Virus record (IMG/VR): IMGVR_UViG_3300017783_000209
Span: 1 to 24,043 of that record
DNA length: 24,043 nt
Reading direction: 5' to 3' (one strand)
DNA from: a virus
Shown in pieces: positions 14,068 through 24,043 of the stretch. Below the pieces are notes generated by a model. That model saw nothing but the letters and a program-made list of their open reading frames with translations, did not search any database and was not told the DNA's origin. Each line of letters begins with the position of its first letter. The stretch's first letter is position 1. Position numbers and translations under genes: made by a program.

Positions 14068-16212
14068 ATGCCCGCTCTGTCGCTTGACCTTGCTCAGACC
14101 AAGCAGTTCACTGCTCTTCTCAAAAAACAAAAAGGCCAGCTTCGCCTTCGTGCTTTCTACCCAGCCGGTCATCCCTTCAAGTCCTCAGACTCTGGACGTA
14201 AAGGCGAGCCGTCACGCCCAACCGTAGAAGGTTGGCAGCAAGAAGGTCGCGGTGTTTACGCCGTTATCAACGATGGCGGTGACACCGACTCAGAAATCAC
14301 CGCATGCAGAGCAGTCTTCTGCGAGTGGGACGATCGTCCTAAAGAATGGCAAGTCGATGCATGGAAAACCCTTCAACTCCCGGAGCCGACACTTCAAGTC
14401 GACACTGGTGGCAAGTCAATCCACAACTACTGGATTTTTGACGAGCCCATCTCCGTTGAAGACTGGCGCTCTATCCAAACCAGACTCCTTGATCACGCTG
14501 ATGCTGATCGCTCTTTAAAAAATCCATCTCGTGTGATGCGCCTTCCAGGCACTTTTCACATCGACTCAGATGGCAGTACAGGTGGGCAGTGCAAAATTAT
14601 CAGCGCTGCATCCACCTACTACACCACCAAAGACATAGAGAAAGCTCTTCCCTCTAAGAAGATGCACGAAAAGATGTCTGAGGCGAATCGCTTCAGCGAT
14701 TACAAGCCCAGACCTCTCGATGAAATTCGCGACGCACTATCAAAGGTCCCGTCCCGTAAGCCAGGCACCGGCACTTATCACACCTATCGCAACCTGTTCT
14801 GGGGACTGATCAAAGCCTGCGAGGAAGCAGGTGGCACTGCAGATGACGCTATCTCGATGATGGAGTCCAACTCACCCAGCTGGAAAGGTCTTCGCCAAAT
14901 CGCAAGTTCTGGCGGTGACAAGGTTACGGCTGGCACGTTCTGGTATTGGGCAAAACACAACGGATGGAGACCGCCAACCCCACCGCAGCGCCAGGAGCCA
15001 GACATCCCCGCACTCGCAAAAGCATTTGAATCCGGTGATCTTGAATCAACCGGCGAACGCCTTCAAAAATGGGAAGCTGATCAGCTCCTTAGGTTCTTGC
15101 GCAGCCTCAGCCGTGAATACAGATACAACGTCTTCACCCAACAGATCGAACAAGAAGATGAGGTCGTTGAAGGTATTGAGCGCTTCTATCTAAAGCTTGC
15201 GCAGATGGGAGTCAAGGTCACCAAAGAAGTCTCAATCGATTGCCTCGTCGAAGTCGCGCAAGAGAACAAGTACGACCCAGTCAAGGCATACCTCGAACAC
15301 TGTGCCAACACCGTCGAGCCCACTTACATCGACACGCTCTCCAGCCAATGGCTAAGGCCAGACGATCAGTCCGCAACAGAGCCGACTCTCTACGACAACA
15401 TGATCAAATGCACCCTTATCGCTGCAGTGCGCAGGGTGTTTGAACCTGGCTGCAAATTTGATCAAGCCTGCGTGCTGATGGGTGAGCAGGGTGCTCGTAA
15501 GTCTTCATTTTGGAAGGCTCTGGGAGGGCACTTCTTCTCCGACGCACTTAGAGACATCCAATCCAAAGATGACCTGATGGTTCTGCATCGCAGCTGGATC
15601 ATGGAGTGGGCTGAACTTGATCACATCACTGGCAAAAGACACGCCGGACAGATCAAAGCTTTTCTCTCACAGTCAACCGACATGTTCCGCGTGCCATATG
15701 GCAAAGCAACTGAAGCTTTTCCTCGTCGCGGCATCATCGTTGGTTCGACCAACAGGTCTGATGGCTTTTTGGTGGATGACACTGGCAACCGCAGATTCTG
15801 GGTCATACCAGTTCAAGCAACTCACAAGAATCCGATCAACGTCGATCTGCTGATGAAAGAAGTCGACGCTATCTGGGCGTCTGCTGTTCACGCTTACAAG
15901 AACGGTGAGCCATGCCAGCTCACGATCGAGCAGGAAGAACAGGTCTACAAAGAAAACATCAACTACATGCTCGATAGTCCTTGGCGTTCACCGATCGAAG
16001 ATTGGCTGTCTCAACCTAAAAATAAGTACGTTCCTGTCACTGTTGATTTACTTTTAACCGACGCGGTCGGCAAGCCGGTGGAACGCCAGACCAAGGGCGA
16101 TCAGATGCAGGTTGCGTCCATTCTTAGGGAGCTTGGGTTTAACAGACGCAAAAGTCGCGTGAACGGCAGTCTCAAATGGGTCTACAAACGAGACTCAGAC
16201 CAAGACTCGTGA
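14068..16212 (+). CDS. Primase-polymerase/VapE-type helicase fusion (714 aa)
   Basis: The N-terminal half resembles archaeo-eukaryotic (RepB/prim-pol-like) primases: an acidic pair in RAVFCEWDD (E86, D88), the His motif in GGKSIHNYWIF (about 114-124), and SRVMRLPGTFHID (about 153-165). The C-terminal half is a virulence-associated-E-type SF3-like ATPase. It has a Walker A at about 471-480 (MGEQGARKSS), a Walker B-like WIMEWAEL (about 510-517), KAFLSQSTDMFRVPYGK, a sensor GSTNRSDGFLVDD and TGNRRFWVIPV. The usual Gly before Lys in the P-loop is Arg here (GARKS). Such proteins prime and unwind at phage and plasmid origins. An iteron-like inverted-repeat region starts 12 bases downstream, which supports an initiator or replicative-helicase role. 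Confidence 0.88.
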   Translation: MPALSLDLAQTKQFTALLKKQKGQLRLRAFYPAGHPFKSSDSGRKGEPSRPTVEGWQQEGRGVYAVINDGGDTDSEITACRAVFCEWDDRPKEWQVDAWKTLQLPEPTLQVDTGGKSIHNYWIFDEPISVEDWRSIQTRLLDHADADRSLKNPSRVMRLPGTFHIDSDGSTGGQCKIISAASTYYTTKDIEKALPSKKMHEKMSEANRFSDYKPRPLDEIRDALSKVPSRKPGTGTYHTYRNLFWGLIKACEEAGGTADDAISMMESNSPSWKGLRQIASSGGDKVTAGTFWYWAKHNGWRPPTPPQRQEPDIPALAKAFESGDLESTGERLQKWEADQLLRFLRSLSREYRYNVFTQQIEQEDEVVEGIERFYLKLAQMGVKVTKEVSIDCLVEVAQENKYDPVKAYLEHCANTVEPTYIDTLSSQWLRPDDQSATEPTLYDNMIKCTLIAAVRRVFEPGCKFDQACVLMGEQGARKSSFWKALGGHFFSDALRDIQSKDDLMVLHRSWIMEWAELDHITGKRHAGQIKAFLSQSTDMFRVPYGKATEAFPRRGIIVGSTNRSDGFLVDDTGNRRFWVIPVQATHKNPINVDLLMKEVDAIWASAVHAYKNGEPCQLTIEQEEQVYKENINYMLDSPWRSPIEDWLSQPKNKYVPVTVDLLLTDAVGKPVERQTKGDQMQVASILRELGFNRRKSRVNGSLKWVYKRDSDQDS

Positions 16213-16223
16213 GTCTCGCAAAT

Positions 16224-16421
16224 GTTCCCACCTGTTCCCACCTTGTTCCCCCATCCATAACGCTGAGACCCGTTCCAGCCCAAGGTTGTTCCCACTGTTC
16301 CTACCTATAACCCTTACTTTTATGAATTTAATAAATAGGGGGGTAGGAGCAGTAGAAGGGGGGTTGGGGGCGTTTTGGGAAACTCCTAAGAAAAGGTGGG
16401 AACAGGTGGGAACGTGGGAAC
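16224..16421. other. Putative replication origin: GTTCCCACCT iterons in a long inverted repeat
   Basis: Left side: two tandem GTTCCCACCT (16224-16233, 16234-16243), then degenerate copies at 16245 (GTTCCCCCAT), 16272 (GTTCCAGCCC), 16288 (GTTCCCACT) and 16297 (GTTCCTACCT). Right side, inverted: AGGTGGGAAC at 16394-16403 and 16404-16413, then GTGGGAAC at 16414-16421. The 21 bases at 16224-16244 and 16393-16413 are exact reverse complements. A second, inner dyad pairs 16294-16305 with 16342-16353 (11 of 12). Between them is an AT-rich core (about 16314-16337, with TATGAATTTAATAAAT) followed by G-runs on the plus strand. Iterons, an AT-rich core and the primase/VapE neighbour are the classical signs of an origin; operator use by the ParB-like protein is an alternative. 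Confidence 0.65.
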
Positions 16422-16462
16422 ACCCTGTCTCATGCTCGACGAGCTGACAAGAGAGTGCTACG

Positions 16463-17266
16463 GTGGCACAGCGAATAAAAACTCGAATGAATCAGGTCAT
16501 TGAAGTTGTTAATGAAATGTCGGAACTTGAGGCTCGGCATCTCATCGCTGATATCAAGAAGAACATCACCACAGTTAGGGCGCAAATTTATGAATTAGAT
16601 CGCCGGCAAGGTTGGAAGGCTCTTGGCTATCGCAGCTTCACGGCTTGCTGCATGGAAGAGTTCCCAGAGCTGCATGAGCGGACCATTCGCCGTCAGTTGT
16701 ATGCCGCGCAGATAGAGGACACCCTCAAAAAAGAGTTAGGGCCAGATGGCCCTAAAAAACTGGGTGATACGCCCGAAGCTCATCTTCGTCCTTTAGTTTC
16801 CGTCAAAAACGACGATGAGACCCTTGTCGCTGCTTACTCAAAAGCTCAGGACATTGCCAGGGAAGAAAACCAAGGCAAGCTGACTCAGGAAATTGTCACT
16901 CGTGCGGTTGAGCAGGTTCGGCCTGAATACGAATGGACAGAAGACGAGCTAAAACGCAAAGCCATTGTTGAAGCTGGCGGCACTGTCGTGGCAAACATGC
17001 ACCAAGACACTGACCGGGCGCTGCTCACTTGGGCCAGGAAGACCGACCGCTTTGTTCGCATTGATCGCACTAGCGACTGGGGCAATCCTTTCGAGATGGG
17101 GCCTGACGGTGACCGAGATACGGTCTGTGACTCGTATGAAATTTTTTTTCCGCGAAAGTTCAGCCTCCACAACCGCCTGGACGAGCTGAAGGGCAAGGTT
17201 CTTGGTTGCTGGTGCTATCCCCAGCGTTGCCATGGCATGTACCTAATTCAATCCATGGAGAAGTGA
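16463..17266 (+). CDS. ParB-like N-domain fused to C-terminal DUF4326 domain (267 aa)
   Basis: Residues 1-110 are helical (MSELEARHLIADIKKNITTV, YELDRRQGWKALGYRSFTAC, HERTIRRQLYAAQIEDTL). They resemble the helix-turn-helix-bearing part of ParB/plasmid-type DNA-binding proteins in cyanobacteria and phages. After an acidic linker the C-terminal part matches DUF4326: VVANMHQDTDRALLTWARKT, RFVRIDRTSDWGNPF, ELKGKVLGCWCYPQRCHG. DUF4326 is widespread in phages with unknown function. A GTG at 16463 is used; ATG at 16487 would lose eight residues. The gene starts 42 bases after the iteron region, so the N-domain may bind those repeats. Confidence 0.75.
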   Translation: MAQRIKTRMNQVIEVVNEMSELEARHLIADIKKNITTVRAQIYELDRRQGWKALGYRSFTACCMEEFPELHERTIRRQLYAAQIEDTLKKELGPDGPKKLGDTPEAHLRPLVSVKNDDETLVAAYSKAQDIAREENQGKLTQEIVTRAVEQVRPEYEWTEDELKRKAIVEAGGTVVANMHQDTDRALLTWARKTDRFVRIDRTSDWGNPFEMGPDGDRDTVCDSYEIFFPRKFSLHNRLDELKGKVLGCWCYPQRCHGMYLIQSMEK

Positions 17267-18167: not shown

Positions 18168-18896
18168 ATGACACAAGTTTTGAAAGTTGACATCGACGAT
18201 GCAATTAAAAAGCTCAACTTGGTTCAAAGAGCGCAGGTTCCATTCGCTGCCAAGCTCACCCTGCAAAGGCTTGCTAAGGCAGTAACTAAGAAAGACATTC
18301 CTGCACACATGAAGGAGGTCTTCCAAAGCCCAAATAATTTGACACTCAAAAGCCTTAACTACAAGGTGGTTGGTAACTATGAAGTCAAGCTCGATTTCAT
18401 CGATAGCGTCCCCAAGGGCAATGCCCCAACCAACTACTTAGCGCCTGTCACTCGTGGCGTCCAAGGCAACCAGGCGTACGAGACCAAGTTCAGCAGATTT
18501 GTCAAAAAAGCTGGCATCGTTCCCAACAACTATTATCCAATCCCGTTCAAAAGTAATCTTCGTACAAATAAATACGGCAAGCCATCTCAAGGCGAGTACA
18601 GCACAGCATGGAGTCGCCTGCAGGTTGCAGGCTCTCCCGGCAAGCGAAAGGATCGTTATTTTTCTATCCCAGACAACAGGATGCGCGGTGTCAGCAGAAA
18701 GCAGTTGACCTTGTTTGGCTTGTCTGAAGGTATTTACAGAGTAAAAGGAAAGAGCAACCTTCAGCTCTTGTTCACCTACGCAAAACGCCCGCCAACAGTG
18801 CCCAAGATCTTCGACTATTACGGTGTTGTTGGAAAAAAGGTTTCCAAGCGCGCTCCAGGAATTTTCAGAGACGCCTTGCGTCAGGCGCTCAAGTGA
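18168..18896 (+). CDS. Hypothetical protein resembling phage minor tail/completion proteins (242 aa)
   Basis: A basic alpha/beta protein with two helices at the start (AIKKLNLVQRAQVPFAAKLT, LQRLAKAVTKKDIPAHMKEV), then FQSPNNLTLKSLNYKVV and YLAPVTRGVQGNQAYETKFS, followed by RFVKKAGIVPNNYYPIPFKS. The order (Ala/Lys-rich helices, F..P...T...L, a YL.P...G.....T...) is reminiscent of GPZ/DUF6441-type minor tail proteins. That is a loose impression, and its place among replication genes is unusual for a structural protein. The stop overlaps the GTG start of the ligase gene (GTGA). Confidence 0.45.
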   Translation: MTQVLKVDIDDAIKKLNLVQRAQVPFAAKLTLQRLAKAVTKKDIPAHMKEVFQSPNNLTLKSLNYKVVGNYEVKLDFIDSVPKGNAPTNYLAPVTRGVQGNQAYETKFSRFVKKAGIVPNNYYPIPFKSNLRTNKYGKPSQGEYSTAWSRLQVAGSPGKRKDRYFSIPDNRMRGVSRKQLTLFGLSEGIYRVKGKSNLQLLFTYAKRPPTVPKIFDYYGVVGKKVSKRAPGIFRDALRQALK

Positions 18897-19726
18897 ATTA
18901 CGATCGCGACTTACCTTTGCTCTTGTCCTTCATGTCGATCGCTGCTTTGCGCACTGAATTGCGCATGCTTAACAAGTCTGTGCGTAACGCAGACTCCTCG
19001 TATCGCATGGGCGATGCGCGCATGTCTGACATTGAGTTCGACGATCTAGACAGGCTGCGCAGCTTGGTCGCTGATCAGTTGAGGCGAAACGCACCTCATG
19101 CACCTGAGCTTGAGGAAGACGACAGCATTGTTCTGCTGAGCTTGGACAACAAGCCGTTTGAGCAATGGATTGAAGGGTTTGAGGAGAGCACGATCTTTAC
19201 GGTGCAACCCAAGATCGACGGTTGTTCGTTAGCTGTGCGTTATGAGGACGGCGTTCTCGTCGCTGCATCAAAGCGCTGCGGCAGTGATGTCCTTGGCATT
19301 GCACGCAAGGTTGACGGCATCCCTCACACCATTAACGAGCCAGGAGTTTTTGAGGTACATGGTGAGCTGCACGGCTGGGATAAAGACTCCCAGAAGCGTT
19401 CAGCTAAGGCATTAAATGCCAGTGGCACCACCAAAGGACTGCACTTCAGTGCTTATCGCGTTGTCGATGCTGTTGGCCACGAGCTGGCGACATTGCAGCA
19501 CCTGCGAGGGTTGGGTTTTGATGTGCCAGAAACATTGACTTGCAGTGATCCAAGAGATGCTCGGTCCTTGCATGCAGAGTGGATTCTTGGTCGTGTGTTT
19601 GACAGATATCCAACTGATGGCATCGTGGTCAAAGTGCTTGAGCACTCCTTGCAGGATGCGCTTGGCCAATCCAGCGGGGCAAAGCCCTGCCCTAAATGGG
19701 CCTTAGCAATGAAGCACTATGCGTGA
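18893..19726 (+). CDS. NAD+-type DNA ligase reduced to its adenylation region (277 aa)
   Basis: The LigA pattern is clear: DSSYRMGDARMSDIEFDDL in the NMN-binding Ia region, IVLLSLDNKPFEQW (79-92), and catalytic motif PKIDGCSLAVRYEDG with K107. GELHG follows at 157-161 and TDGIVVKV at 241-248. The final motif PKWALAMKHYA (267-277) stands at the very C-terminus. The enzyme therefore stops after motif V and lacks the OB-fold, zinc-finger, HhH and BRCT domains of the roughly 670-residue bacterial enzyme. It may be a minimal phage ligase or need a partner. GTG at 18893 overlaps the previous stop; ATG at 18932 is an alternative. Confidence 0.85.
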   Translation: MNYDRDLPLLLSFMSIAALRTELRMLNKSVRNADSSYRMGDARMSDIEFDDLDRLRSLVADQLRRNAPHAPELEEDDSIVLLSLDNKPFEQWIEGFEESTIFTVQPKIDGCSLAVRYEDGVLVAASKRCGSDVLGIARKVDGIPHTINEPGVFEVHGELHGWDKDSQKRSAKALNASGTTKGLHFSAYRVVDAVGHELATLQHLRGLGFDVPETLTCSDPRDARSLHAEWILGRVFDRYPTDGIVVKVLEHSLQDALGQSSGAKPCPKWALAMKHYA

Positions 19727-19993: not shown

Positions 19994-20481
19994 GGCTTTT
20001 ACGTTTTCACACACACTCACACACAAAATCTAGTACAAATGTACTATTGAGAAAATGTGTCTCTTATTGATATTGAGACTCATTCTCAATAAGAAAGAAT
20101 ATTTTGCAAAAAATATTAGCGCCTTAAGTAACACAAACTCAAAAAAGTCGATGTAAAAAACGCATCGCAATATTTTTTGACGATGAAAAGAATTTTCTTT
20201 AATTTTCAAGGTTCGTGATGTTTTGCGCTGTTTTAGTTCGTGACACAAACTGCCACGGCGCGTAGCGTTTCGCCGTGCCAACACCGTGCCAACGTGCGAC
20301 GTTTTCGCCTTCTCTCCACGGTCAGGGATCCACGCGGCCGCCAAGGGTGGGGATGGGTCGCGCACGCCGCGCACGCGCACGTAAAACCACCTCAGAAAGT
20401 GGCACACAAGGGCGGGGATCCCGTGAATTTCTGTTATTATTAATTACGCGCACATACGCGCGTTGCATTTGCTACTTGCCC
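19994..20481. other. Gene-free transition region: AT-rich with inverted repeats, then GC-rich
   Basis: No supported gene lies in 19911-20481. The first part is AT-rich (16 G/C of 60 bases in 20101-20160) and carries a CA tract (about 20009-20025). Inverted repeats are TAGTAC/GTACTA (20031-20036, 20041-20046), TATTGAGAA/TTCTCAATA (20045-20053, 20083-20091), CTTATTGA/TCAATAAG (20063-20070, 20086-20093) and an 11-base perfect pair at 20107-20117 and 20169-20179. Within the second pair lies TGAGACTCATTCTCA (20074-20088), a Fur-box-like dyad with one mismatch. From about 20240 the sequence is GC-rich. It has a hairpin CACGGCG/CGCCGTG (20254-20260, 20271-20277), and then TTATTATTAATTA near 20433-20445, which might be part of a promoter for the next operon. 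Confidence 0.6.
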
Positions 20482-20634
20482 GTGAATTCAACCCCTGACC
20501 GTCTCCGGTCCGATCTCGCAGCCATGCGAGACCGACACGACGAGACAGACCGGCGGATCCTCCAGCTGATCGCCGATACTGCCGAACTGGACGCGCGCGT
20601 TTCCGCGATGCTCGCCGAGGATCGGCCCGAGTGA
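20482..20634 (+). CDS. 50-aa helical protein opening the GC-rich operon
   Basis: I use the GTG at 20482 (MNSTPDRLRSDLAAMRDRHD), since the longer frame from 20275 covers the hairpin-rich transition region and encodes an implausible Arg/Gly-rich stretch. The rest, ETDRRILQLIADTAELDARV, is a highly charged heptad-like helix, so a coiled-coil dimer is likely. The stop is ten bases before a hairpin. No family recognised. Confidence 0.5.
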   Translation: MNSTPDRLRSDLAAMRDRHDETDRRILQLIADTAELDARVSAMLAEDRPE

Positions 20635-20643
20635 CAATCAGAC

Positions 20644-20670
20644 AACCGTCCCTAAGCGTGGGGCGGTTTG
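20644..20670 (+). terminator. Hairpin after the 50-aa gene, weak terminator or attenuator
   Basis: AACCGTCCC (20644-20652) pairs with GGGGCGGTT (20660-20668), with one wobble, over a 7-base loop. Only three T residues follow, so termination may be partial. Its position lets it set the level of transcription into the genes that follow. Confidence 0.5.
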
Positions 20671-20746
20671 CTGAATTATCCGGCAGACTCTCAATCAAGC
20701 AGCTGACGCGCTGCTTTTTACCTTTGTTCCCTTGCTCCTTTTAATC

Positions 20747-20986
20747 ATGCTCAGATTCTCGGAATCCACAAACGAGATCACCGGCGCCGTTATGGGCGCC
20801 GTTGGAATCGCCGCAATCTATGGCGGAATCGGGGTCTGTCTCCTCGGCGACATGCGCGGCATGGATATCAGCCTTGCCGGCTGTCTCACGACTAGCGCCG
20901 CCGCCGTTCCGCTGTCCGCCGCCGCCAAGCAGCGCCGCGAAGCTTACGCGGAATTGTGCGCGCAGTACTCCACGCGCCGGGGTTGA
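20747..20986 (+). CDS. Small membrane protein (79 aa)
   Basis: ATG at 20747; an upstream start at 20732 would only add a hydrophobic pentapeptide. Residues about 13-34 (GAVMGAVGIAAIYGGIGVCL) form one membrane helix, and LAGCLTTSAAAVPLSAAA (about 45-62) is a probable second. A charged, Arg-rich C-terminus follows. Codons are GCC/GGC/CGC-rich, unlike genes left of 20,000. The leader has a pyrimidine-rich GTTCCCTTGCTCC segment that recalls the 29-base leader repeat found before two later genes. Function unknown. Confidence 0.6.
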   Translation: MLRFSESTNEITGAVMGAVGIAAIYGGIGVCLLGDMRGMDISLAGCLTTSAAAVPLSAAAKQRREAYAELCAQYSTRRG

Positions 20987-20990
20987 TCTA

Positions 20991-21254
20991 ATGAAAGCCA
21001 TTCATCCCGCTACATCCGACAGCATCCGCCGCGCGACTATTCGCAAGCGTCGCCGCGCCGCTGTCACCCGCGCGTCACTGTTCGGGTTCTCTTTCGCTGC
21101 CTCTGTCTTTGCTCTTTTTCCCTTAGCCAATCAGGCGCAGAAGCACAGCGAGACACAACGCGGCGCCATCGCCGCCGCTGCCCTTATGGGTTCCGTTGTT
21201 TTGGCTGGTTCGTCGCTGATTCTCTCAGCCGCCGCCGCTGATGAGGTTCAATAA
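20991..21254 (+). CDS. Small two-span membrane protein (87 aa)
   Basis: ATG at 20991, four bases after the previous stop. A strongly basic N-terminus (IRRATIRKRRRAAVTR) should face the cytoplasm. Two hydrophobic segments follow: about residues 28-48 (SLFGFSFAASVFALFPLA) and about 62-83 (AAAALMGSVVLAGSSLILSA). The tail is short. The stop overlaps the next ATG by one base. It pairs with the preceding membrane protein in layout, so the two may act together. No family recognised. Confidence 0.6.
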   Translation: MKAIHPATSDSIRRATIRKRRRAAVTRASLFGFSFAASVFALFPLANQAQKHSETQRGAIAAAALMGSVVLAGSSLILSAAAADEVQ

Positions 21255-21580
21255 TGCAGAACATTTCTGCACTGATCGCCGCACCTTTCGCGGCTCTTTC
21301 TTTCGCTCTGCCAGTCCGTCCCGAACCTGCCGCGCTATGGCGTGCGGGCGAGTGGATGACGTGCGCGGAGTTCTCCGAACTACTCTGTGATTGCACGGGC
21401 TGGACTGTTAAGCCTGGCATTGACCCAGACGATTCCGACGGTGTCGGCCACTGGCTCATAGATCCCTCGGGTGATCGCCAGGGCGATATCTGGCCCGGCC
21501 CTGATCTCGACGATCTCCAGCTCTGGGTCGGCGAACGTATCGACGAAGCGCTAAACGCGGCCGATGGCTGCGAATTCTGA
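21254..21580 (+). CDS. Acidic hypothetical protein with hydrophobic N-terminus (108 aa)
   Basis: The ATG overlaps the previous TAA. Residues 1-20 (MQNISALIAAPFAALSFALP) are hydrophobic and could be a signal or a membrane anchor, though positive charge is lacking. The rest is acidic and Trp-rich (GEWMTCAEFSELLCDCTGW, DPDDSDGVGHWLIDPSGD, GPDLDDLQLWVGERIDEALN). Such acidic, Asp/Trp-rich small proteins are sometimes host-interaction or DNA-mimic proteins, but this is only an idea. The stop lies at the first base of the first 29-base leader repeat. Confidence 0.6.
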   Translation: MQNISALIAAPFAALSFALPVRPEPAALWRAGEWMTCAEFSELLCDCTGWTVKPGIDPDDSDGVGHWLIDPSGDRQGDIWPGPDLDDLQLWVGERIDEALNAADGCEF

Positions 21581-21608
21581 ACCCTTATCCCTTGCCCTTG
21601 CTCTCATG
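21580..21608 (+). repeat. Leader repeat, copy 1 (29 bases, ends in a start codon)
   Basis: The sequence starts AACCCTTATCCCTTGCCCTT and ends GCTCTCATG. It is identical to 22125-22153, and in both cases the final ATG is the start of a gene. The upstream gene stops within its first base. It contains no purine-rich ribosome site. Confidence 0.85.
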
Positions 21609-21923
21609 TTTGATCTATTCACTGTTCCCGGCTGCTCGGTTGAGTATCGCGGGCCAACTGACACGCGCGGCTCTCGTTGGGTCGCCGTAATCCGTCGCGG
21701 CCGTGATCGTTCCGACTGTTACCGCGCGGCCTGTCCTTTTGAACAGGGCGCTATTGAAGCCGCGCGCTTAGCTGTTCAGCGTTTCAATGAAAGGGCCGTT
21801 AAATCTGAGTCTGATAAATGGCACGTTTTAGGTCATCCGCTATCTATGGATGGCGGCGACACATACGTCTTCCCAGTTGGCCCGGACTATCTCCGCTCAT
21901 CTGTCGCGTGTTTTGAACAATGA
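21606..21923 (+). CDS. Hypothetical protein (105 aa)
   Basis: I choose the ATG at 21606, since the same 29-base leader ends in the start codon of a later gene. A longer start at 21564 would only translate that leader. The product begins MFDLFTVPGCSVEYRGPTDT and continues with RWVAVIRRGRDRSDCYRAAC, then an Ala/Arg helix and KWHVLGHPLSMDGGDTYVFP. It is a mixed alpha/beta, three-Cys protein without a recognised family. Codons are GC-rich. It overlaps the next gene by four bases (ATGA). Confidence 0.6.
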   Translation: MFDLFTVPGCSVEYRGPTDTRGSRWVAVIRRGRDRSDCYRAACPFEQGAIEAARLAVQRFNERAVKSESDKWHVLGHPLSMDGGDTYVFPVGPDYLRSSVACFEQ

Positions 21924-22126
21924 AAACCGACCCGAAACTAACGGCCGAACAAATCGCGCGCCTGTCTGCTGAGATTCTTAAGTGCCAGCGACTGCTTCGG
22001 AAGCTATGGAGCGACGACGCGCGCCGCGAAGTGCTCGCGCGCCGTCGCACGCTTTACCGGATCATGTACGCGATCCCCCAAGGTGTGCCCGTTCCGATTG
22101 ACTGGCAACCTTGCCCTCACCCTTAA
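21920..22126 (+). CDS. Small helical basic protein (68 aa)
   Basis: ATG at 21920 overlaps the previous stop. The product begins MKTDPKLTAEQIARLSAEIL and continues KCQRLLRKLWSDDARREVLA, then RRRTLYRIMYAIPQGVPVPI. The first 50 residues form a basic helical bundle and the tail is Pro-rich. The stop codon lies inside the start of the second leader repeat. The basic helical shape may suit DNA or RNA binding; no family recognised. Confidence 0.6.
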   Translation: MKTDPKLTAEQIARLSAEILKCQRLLRKLWSDDARREVLARRRTLYRIMYAIPQGVPVPIDWQPCPHP

Positions 22127-22153
22127 CCCTTATCCCTTGCCCTTGCTCTCATG
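22125..22153 (+). repeat. Leader repeat, copy 2 (29 bases, ends in a start codon)
   Basis: Exact second copy of 21580-21608, 545 bases downstream on the same strand. The TAA of the upstream gene overlaps its first two bases, and its final ATG (22151-22153) starts the 361-residue gene. Confidence 0.85.
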
Positions 22154-23236
22154 CCTTCCATCCACCCTTACGCGCCGCGCGGCATTCCTTCCGACGTGGT
22201 CGACCTTATGGCGCGGTTCGGACTGAATGTCCGTGACCTGCTCACCACCGACCGCCAAAACGCCAAACTTAAAAAGGGCCAAGCCATGGCTCGTGCGCTG
22301 ATCTTGCACCATCTCCCGGCCCGTGCCCTGGCTGCTGCTATCACTCCAGACAATGACGCAAACGGCGCCGCGTGTCGTTCTTTCATCCCTTCATTACTTG
22401 AGATCGCCGAACGCGAACGATTGACCGCGCGCGCCATGGCTTGGAACGGTTGCCCGTGGGCTACTGCCGGATGCGGCGGAGATGGTGGCGGCTGTCTCGC
22501 GTTTTCCGGTCATGGCGGCATGGGGCAGACGGTCGCCGCTGCCCGTGGCCGTCGCACGCTTGCCATGCTCAGCTCGTCAGAAAGTTACGGACGTGCGATT
22601 TTCTGGGCCGTGCTCCGTCACCTGCGCGCAGCGCGCCGCGACGGTTTGCCGCTGTCAGTGCGTCTCAGGGGAACCGACGAGGGTCCCGTGATCGGCTGGC
22701 ATCGGTTGCCGGTGATGATCACAAGCGCAGAAGCGCGCAGCATCGCCGACCGTTACGGCGTGGAAACCATGCCGGGAATTCTGCCGATGGGTCAACGCTT
22801 AGACGTGCCTGATCTCTTCGCTTATGAGTACAGCAAAGCGGGAACCGATGGAGCTCTAGGCCTAATCGCGCAGCGCGCCGGGGGCTTTGACATCACTGCC
22901 AGTTTTGCGGCGGATCGCGCGACGGCGTGCCATGACGGACTGGCAGCACTTCAGAACGGTTTCCGCTTGGCTGTGCCCGTTGCCGTGAAACGCGGCGATC
23001 CTCTGCCGGTCGGCCTGACGTTGAGCCACGGCCGCGAATCGATCAGCGTCCCGTGTGTCGACGGCGACCGCCATGATCACCGCTGGCTCGATCCGCACGG
23101 TGTCGCCGTCATGCTGCGCACTAAGCGCAGCGCCGGAAGTGTGGCCAGTGTGGCGGATTTGTTCAGTTTGCAGCCACACGACAGGCCGCAGCGGCTGGCA
23201 GATGGTGTCGTTCGTCTGGCGTGGGCTGAGCCATGA
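22151..23236 (+). CDS. Phage protein with CPW-x4-C...C-x3-SGHG motif (361 aa)
   Basis: The protein has a recognisable pattern that I know from actinophage and some other phage genomes (related to DUF7227-type proteins). It includes DRQNAKLKKGQ near residue 34, CPWATAGC (C101-C108), then a third Cys (C115) and LAFSGHG (116-122). VAAARGRRT (128-136), FAYEYSKAG and a C-terminal CVDGDRHDHRWLDPHG follow. The Cys triad may bind a metal, and a TIM-barrel-like fold has been suggested to me by layout only. No reaction is established. It is by far the largest gene in the GC-rich operon. The stop overlaps the next gene by four bases (ATGA). Confidence 0.7.
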   Translation: MPSIHPYAPRGIPSDVVDLMARFGLNVRDLLTTDRQNAKLKKGQAMARALILHHLPARALAAAITPDNDANGAACRSFIPSLLEIAERERLTARAMAWNGCPWATAGCGGDGGGCLAFSGHGGMGQTVAAARGRRTLAMLSSSESYGRAIFWAVLRHLRAARRDGLPLSVRLRGTDEGPVIGWHRLPVMITSAEARSIADRYGVETMPGILPMGQRLDVPDLFAYEYSKAGTDGALGLIAQRAGGFDITASFAADRATACHDGLAALQNGFRLAVPVAVKRGDPLPVGLTLSHGRESISVPCVDGDRHDHRWLDPHGVAVMLRTKRSAGSVASVADLFSLQPHDRPQRLADGVVRLAWAEP

Positions 23237-23523
23237 TCGCGCGTTACTGGCACCCGCACGCCCTGCGCCGTCCCATGCGAGAGATCGCCGCGCGCTACCC
23301 CGTCACCTATCGCAAGGTCGGAGAGGCCATGACTGCGCAAGGTTTTGACGTTGACCTATGCGGCGCTGATCTGTCGGCCGCTGAGTCCTTCCGGCTGTTC
23401 GTCGCGATCCTCGCAGCGATGCCGCCGGATGTTGTCCCTTATGGCTCCATGGGAGACGAGACGCCATGGGGCCGAATTGATTGGTTGCCTTTCCTTATAA
23501 GCCTGCAGCGCGGCGACACCTAG
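23233..23523 (+). CDS. Hypothetical protein (96 aa), last gene of the GC-rich operon
   Basis: ATG at 23233 overlapping the previous stop by four bases. The product starts MIARYWHPHALRRPMREIAA, then RYPVTYRKVGEAMTAQGFDV, DLCGADLSAAESFRLFVAIL and WGRIDWLPFLISLQ. The N-terminal half is helix-turn-helix-like (REIAARYPVTYRKVGEAM). That could mean a winged or HTH DNA-binding protein, but it is not a clear match. A classical terminator follows 25 bases after the stop. Confidence 0.6.
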   Translation: MIARYWHPHALRRPMREIAARYPVTYRKVGEAMTAQGFDVDLCGADLSAAESFRLFVAILAAMPPDVVPYGSMGDETPWGRIDWLPFLISLQRGDT

Positions 23524-23548
23524 CACCACAGCCACTAACTAGACACCG

Positions 23549-23573
23549 AACGGCCCCGCGTGGGCCGTTTTTT
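23549..23573 (+). terminator. Rho-independent terminator ending the GC-rich operon
   Basis: AACGGCCC (23549-23556) pairs perfectly with GGGCCGTT (23562-23569) over a 5-base loop, and the T-run extends to 23573. It closes the whole 20482-23523 transcript. Confidence 0.9.
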
Positions 23574-23820
23574 ATGCTGTTTTATCGCAGCTGCGCCGAG
23601 GACCGCCTGAGACGGGCCGGGCATGCTGCCCGGCAGGCTGACCCCTAAGCGCGACGAGACAGGCCTTCAGGGCGCCCCTAGGGGTGTGTTTTGCTGTGCC
23701 GTGCTGTTCTGACGCGCTATCGGGCACGAAAGCAGGGCAGCAGGGCAGCAGGGCAGGGCAGCAGGGCAGCGGCCGCGCACGCGGCGGCGACAATCTGCCA
23801 AGGTCGGCCCGTAAATGTGG
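23574..23820. other. GC-rich gene-free spacer with hairpins and a short tandem repeat
   Basis: No gene is supported from 23524 to the end of the window. This part holds a 7-bp perfect hairpin (GCCGGGC/GCCCGGC, 23616-23634), the palindrome CCCCTAGGGG (23675-23684) and a GCAGGGCA tandem array. The array has three units at 23732-23755 and another at 23761-23768 after a shorter GGGCA. A NotI-type GCGGCCGC (23769-23776) follows. Composition is still that of the GC-rich operon. Confidence 0.7.
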
Positions 23821-24043
23821 TTTGTAGATTAATACAAACTAAAATATATTTAAGCTAACACGAATTAATAATTCCTAGCGATTGAAGCTAATAAATAGTA
23901 GCTGTTATTTGTTATTTAAGCTATTTATAATAAATAGCAATCGTTAAGTAGTAGCTTACATCGACAGTCGTAGGAATTGTTTATATGTTGATGCTAACAA
24001 AAGGGTCCTTCCTGGCTGTGCGTTTGTGTTCCCTCCAGATCGG
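23821..24043. other. AT-rich gene-free region with nested inverted repeats
   Basis: Composition drops sharply (12 G/C of 60 bases in 23881-23940). Inverted repeats are GTTTGTA/TACAAAC (23820-23826, 23833-23839), AATTCCTA/TAGGAATT (23870-23877, 23971-23978) and CGATTG/CAATCG (23879-23884, 23938-23943). The 19-base perfect palindrome GCTATTTATAATAAATAGC (23920-23938) lies within the second. AAGCTA occurs near 23852, 23885 and 23918. I see no coding frame or clear promoter. The nested symmetry suggests an origin, a protein-binding array or a structured junction of the GC-rich block. Confidence 0.6.

Follow-up and report, generated by a model that had tools for sequence, protein, structure and literature searches.

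The intergenic site downstream of the PrimPol-VapE gene

The window analysed here is a 24,043-base viral record from IMG/VR. Within it, the stop codon of a gene for a 714-residue PrimPol-VapE protein (position 16212) is separated by a 250-bp gap from the next open reading frame, which starts at 16463. Eight iteron-like copies are found within 200 bp, all of them lying between these two genes. The features discussed below are as follows.

14068-16212, + strand: PrimPol-VapE, the proposed initiator (Pfam, phmmer, Foldseek)
15979-16191, + strand: C-terminal winged-helix domain, residues ~638-708, the proposed iteron reader (AlphaFold, covariation)
16144-16146, + strand: codon of Arg693, a wing residue and the best predictor of iteron base 6 (covariation)
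16156-16158, + strand: codon of Arg697, which covaries with iteron base 1, Arg going with G (covariation)
16171-16173, + strand: codon of Leu702, which covaries with iteron base 2, Leu/Pro/Gln going with T and Arg with G (covariation)
16224-16253, + strand: left outer arm, three forward iterons (GTTCCCACCT, GTTCCCACCT and GTTCCCCCA)
16288-16306, + strand: left inner iteron pair, forward GTTCCCACT and GTTCCTACCT, abutting the AT-rich core
16306-16338, no strand: AT-rich core, the presumed unwinding element, 83% A+T over 30 bp (16306-16335)
16337-16391, + strand: G-rich tract with its G runs on the + strand, ending in GGGAAACTCCTAAG (composition, alignment)
16394-16421, - strand: right arm, three reverse iterons, two perfect and one with a single mismatch
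16463-17266, + strand: protein with a C-terminal DUF4326 domain (phrog_464), not required for the site

Across a 148-nt spacer, the two 21-bp sequences at 16224-16244 and 16393-16413 form inverted arms with 100% complementarity. A perfect inverted pair of this length within ~200 bp is expected by chance about 1e-6 times per window (24,043 x 200 x 4^-21). If one mismatch at most is allowed, the window contains seven occurrences of GTTCCCACCT, where 1.15 would be expected; no shuffle reached seven. Six of these near-matches fall inside 16224-16421, the lone other being a one-mismatch match at 2281. The iteron-like copies start on the + strand at 16224, 16234, 16245 (degenerate), 16288 and 16297, and on the - strand at 16396, 16406 and 16414. 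The first lies 11 bp past the VapE stop, and its placement is similar in relatives. Both the inverted repeat with its further degenerate copies and the AT-rich core, as given in a preliminary description of this DNA, are thus real. The same description included a second, 12-bp dyad (16294-16305 with 16342-16353). This dyad is present here (92%). Since its right half sits within the G-rich tract and is not matched in L033, L035 or L039, all close relatives, it looks like chance, and it was rejected as a functional element because it is not conserved. Cumulative GC skew dips locally here, a weak signal given the gene strand switches close by.

Next to the right arm (16424-16430; 140-240 bp past the VapE stop in related loci), the sequence GTCTCA/TGAGAC is over-represented: 14.5 occurrences are expected and 91 are counted, spread over 46 of 109 loci.

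The PrimPol-VapE protein

The protein consists of an AEP primase-polymerase (~1-190), a linker/PriCT-like region, a VapE superfamily helicase (435-633) and a C-terminal winged helix (~638-708). The AEP part resembles the PrimPol of cyanophage S-2L, 6zp9 (phmmer E=2e-34; Foldseek 1.7e-16), and the helicase part matches Pfam PF05272 with E=2e-68. The best solved relative of the VapE helicase is 7pds, PriRep1 with dsDNA, matched by Foldseek with E=1e-13 and by phmmer ('similar to D. nodosus vapE') with E=2.7e-27 over residues 390-606. We take PriRep1 to be a SaPI protein.

When the C-terminal domain is modelled alone with AlphaFold, pLDDT is ~90 across most of it; the full protein gives a low pTM of 0.44. 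The predicted elements are three helices (640-648, 659-667, 676-689) followed by two wing strands (691-698, 701-708). Structural comparison of this domain returns mainly winged-helix proteins, together with PriRep1 (Z 5.9), middling Z values that speak to the fold only and not to function. A sequence profile of the domain finds nothing significant in the PDB, and Foldseek with the domain alone yields no match with E < 0.001, its weak matches including many winged helices.

A constant layout with a changing iteron word

In relatives of the VapE protein, from IMG/VR and from named phages, the gene is followed, at nearly equal spacing, by forward iterons, an AT-rich core, a G-rich tract and reverse iterons, in this order and whatever gene comes next. 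This layout is kept in relatives with 55-80% protein identity and in two with ~30% (L006, L011), and most of the iteron words stand far above shuffles. Some VapE relatives have no clear iterons by this method (e.g. L121, L145, L289-L291), the iteron calling being heuristic. The comparison with relatives proposed in the preliminary description thus finds the repeat and its layout kept where VapE is kept. The two-arm form, thought there to be unusual for its symmetry, turns out to be standard among relatives in the VapE family. A scan of a genome collection added a single relative, a Cyanobium bin.

Iteron orientation follows the same plan. Among 51 scorable loci, the iterons left of the core run one way by 104:1, and those on the right are mostly opposite (137:25). 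In 114 related loci the equivalent of the AT-rich core averages 76% A+T, GGGG is present in 80%, and base composition to the right of the core is 40% G against 14% C, the reverse of that on the left. The G-rich tract that separates the AT core from the right arm is itself conserved in these 114 loci and ends in a GGGAAACTC-like sequence. A role of this tract in strand choice, priming or holding the bubble open is possible.

The iteron word, in turn, differs between lineages. It is GTTCCCACC in the window, GTTCCAACC in L033 (80% identical protein), TGTCCAACC in L035, GTCCAACC in L036-L039, TGCCTAACC in Synechococcus phage S-LBS1 and GTTCCTACC in L042 and L048. Within a locus the copies tend to switch in concert: within-locus entropy at base 6 averages 1.27 bits, whereas shuffling the copies among loci gives 1.60 and never less than 1.53. 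A further panel of 16 loci, mostly 25-35% identical in protein and excluding the APSE-5 locus L163, which has toxin-subunit genes, includes about ten with their own iteron word in the post-VapE gap, such as GGTCACCC, TGTTGCAT, CTGCAACA and CGGGACAA. These come from Staphylococcus, Corynebacterium, Paenibacillus and Streptococcus phages, among others. Clear iterons are absent, by the same method, from about six of the 16 (e.g. Ln8, BS162P3, S-ESS1, Mica).

The exact 19-mer of the window occurs in 26 IMG/VR contigs; in 13 of them it immediately follows a gene for VapE or a fragment resembling one. Arrays of GTTCCCAC in both orientations and with different spacing are found in L017, L021, L025 and L029, with no VapE in the examined stretch; those of L021 and L029 lie near terminase genes.

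Covariation of iteron bases with VapE residues

After alignment of 109 non-redundant VapE proteins, each locus was assigned a class according to base 6 of its iterons, using only the DNA (frame C[CT]N-AC). The class is unambiguous at 78 loci and ambiguous at the other 31. Residue 693 is the top-ranking of 319 VapE columns for base 6, with a mutual information of 0.74 of 0.96 bits, the next column reaching 0.45. Arg goes with C/T (44 loci) and Lys/Gln/Ser with A/G (30 loci), so that 74 of the 78 fit. The idea of residue 693 was first seen by eye on 37 of the same proteins, and the 319-column scan is therefore not independent of it. At that stage the rule appeared to have no exceptions, a claim given up when larger sampling yielded four (L293, L297, L298 and L310). 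All four belong to one clade, in which Lys stands alongside the iteron TGCCTACC; another wing residue may compensate. Base 1 picks residue 697 and base 2 picks residue 702, both of which also lie in the wing.

A tree was built from the helicase core, the C-terminus being left out. The base-6 class changes ~18 times on this tree. In eight supported independent contrasts residue 693 is concordant in seven and discordant in none, and the next best residue scores 3.9. The corresponding sign test (p=0.016) applies to the residue 693 column alone and would not by itself survive correction over all columns. As a control, the same procedure was applied elsewhere on these contigs, to four further stretches of DNA, and gave no association.

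The prediction was also fixed beforehand and applied to new loci, one of its two named queries, L340, having been swapped for L252 before scanning. This gave 25 loci not >97% identical to earlier ones, many of them related to one another and to the training set. All of the 20 that could be classed agree on residue 693. For residue 697, 25 of 25 agree, of which only two had Arg. Base 2 could be called at only three loci, and at one of them residue 702 disagreed. Carried by eye to distant VapEs, such as those of YeP4, JessA and PS3, the residue rule fails.

Taken together, the association of residues 693, 697 and 702 with iteron bases points, indirectly, to the VapE C-terminal domain as the part of the protein that sets iteron specificity.

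A probable replication origin read by the upstream-encoded helicase

It appears very probable that phage replication starts from an origin at 16213-16421 and that the PrimPol-VapE encoded immediately upstream reads this origin with its C-terminal winged helix. The preliminary description had likewise proposed an iteron-type origin of the adjoining primase-helicase, and this is supported both by a layout that is kept with VapE and by a word that covaries with the VapE C-terminal domain. An origin bound by the phage's own helicase is the best reading since the protein is homologous to the SaPI Rep type and the site is equivalent.

In the proposed mechanism, VapE subunits would bind the iterons on either side of the AT-rich core through the winged helix, a step in line with the covariation. 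Two helicase rings would then assemble head to head, as suggested by the left and right iterons facing each other and by the SaPI precedent. The rings would open up the AT core and be loaded facing opposite ways, and the fused AEP primase would begin synthesis on the exposed strands, leading to bidirectional replication. Coevolution of the cis site with the wing of the protein would explain why the origin word varies among lineages and the layout does not.

A broader proposal, which we favour by a modest margin over its negation, is that VapE-type initiators carry a readable wing code in which residues 693, 697 and 702 correspond to bases 6, 1 and 2. Matched changes of wing and iteron would diversify origin specificity on a fixed two-arm layout, giving compatibility groups that could be predicted from sequence.

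The preliminary description had also given a downstream 'ParB-like' gene a part at the site. A centromere-like partition site bound by that protein would suit clustered repeats, which are typical of such sites and here lie directly upstream of 16463-17266. The protein encoded there carries DUF4326 (phrog_464) and gave no match to a ParB domain, and no iteron arms (scores near chance) precede 11 non-redundant DUF4326 homologues that have no VapE upstream. The repeats, on the other hand, accompany VapE beside other downstream genes and covary with VapE residues. A partition function is thus very improbable, and a ParB-parS site was rejected because no ParB domain was found in the protein encoded beside the repeats. 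Still less probable is a packaging, recombination or mobile-repeat sequence unconnected to replication initiation. Inverted repeats do occur in such elements, and the 19-mer contigs L021, L025 and L029 have the arrays described above, away from any VapE in the examined stretch and in two cases near terminase genes. The fixed post-VapE place across families, the AT core and lineage words that track VapE argue against it.

Two readings leave VapE in a different role. The site could be a transcriptional operator through which VapE or a phage repressor controls the downstream operon or its own, with replication starting elsewhere; it is intergenic between two co-directional genes, and initiators often autoregulate. 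Yet no sigma-70-like promoter is found in 16150-16520 (the search covered this promoter type), inward-facing arms flanking an AT-rich core suit an origin better, and the site lies downstream of vapE rather than at its promoter. We regard this reading as improbable, although the site may have a secondary regulatory role. Slightly less probable again is an origin bound by host DnaA or by another phage protein, with VapE acting merely as helicase. A separate initiator is used by many iteron origins. Here, though, covariation peaks in the VapE C-terminus (the scan covered VapE columns), and the homologous Rep and Cch2 bind unaided (PMC7581432). The DnaA-box pattern TTWTNCACA, the one form searched, has no match in the site and two in the window against 1.9 expected. 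A DnaA-dependent origin was rejected since the site holds no cluster of boxes of this form.

Comparison with known systems

In SaPI origins the iterons form two sets with an AT-rich region between them. The window shares with them this layout, a homologous helicase, and a putative origin made of several short iterons directly downstream of the helicase's own gene. In SaPI Rep, iteron recognition just downstream of the gene is assigned to the C-terminal domain, and the protein apparently binds as two hexamers (Ubeda et al. 2007, as related in PMC7581432), both of which have their likeness in the arrangement proposed here. The window differs in coming from a cyanophage and not a satellite, in the fusion of an S-2L-type primase to the helicase, in its iteron words and in the G-rich tract beside the AT core. 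SCCmec Cch2 likewise uses its C-terminal domain to bind short direct repeats, which lie in a putative origin shortly past the end of its own gene; unlike the protein of the window it is a Primase_Cterm/D5-type helicase, with only three iterons and no two-arm layout described (PMC7581432).

Phage P4 offers another parallel. Its alpha protein likewise joins a primase to a helicase and has a C-terminal domain that binds the origin, as is proposed here; P4 needs two separate, distant elements with iterons, ori1 and crr. In contrast, six of the seven near-matches in the window, a 24-kb record that is possibly incomplete, lie in one 200-bp cluster.

The S-2L PrimPol (PMC8065100; 6zp9) and the primase-polymerase of S-LBS1 share the architecture of the window's protein. 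Strong iteron arms (TGCCTAACC) follow the S-LBS1 gene, and S-2L has a weak candidate, barely above shuffle (CCGTGCCG). The examined stretches of the two phage records carry no origin annotation, and the portion of the S-2L paper that was searched gives no origin description (PMC8065100). The S-2L study states that no function is described in the literature for VirE, the matching family.

The kind of system, a helicase with a downstream iteron origin, is known. What is new is the concerted switching of words with a readable correspondence between residues and bases; no report of VapE-linked iteron switching was found in the literature searched, which left most subscription papers out of reach. 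Phages very commonly encode VapE-like helicases, and a concrete role is offered for these here, that of self-loading origin initiators. The finding also marks where VapE-linked origins would lie, and it provides a natural series of matched protein-DNA variants in which an initiator and its origin would change specificity without losing function.

Other features of the window

From 20250 to 24043, after a short A+T-rich stretch, G+C jumps to ~60% and PHROG matches are few. A blastn search of this segment against phage records gave no match, and it is either a different module or the product of chimeric assembly. It contains a 32-bp direct repeat (21577-21608 and 22122-22153, 97% identical and 545 bp apart), each copy of which is at or near the start of an open reading frame. 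Before this segment, 18893-19726 encodes a short protein with the adenylation domain of NAD-dependent DNA ligase only (Pfam PF01653), shorter than a full ligase.
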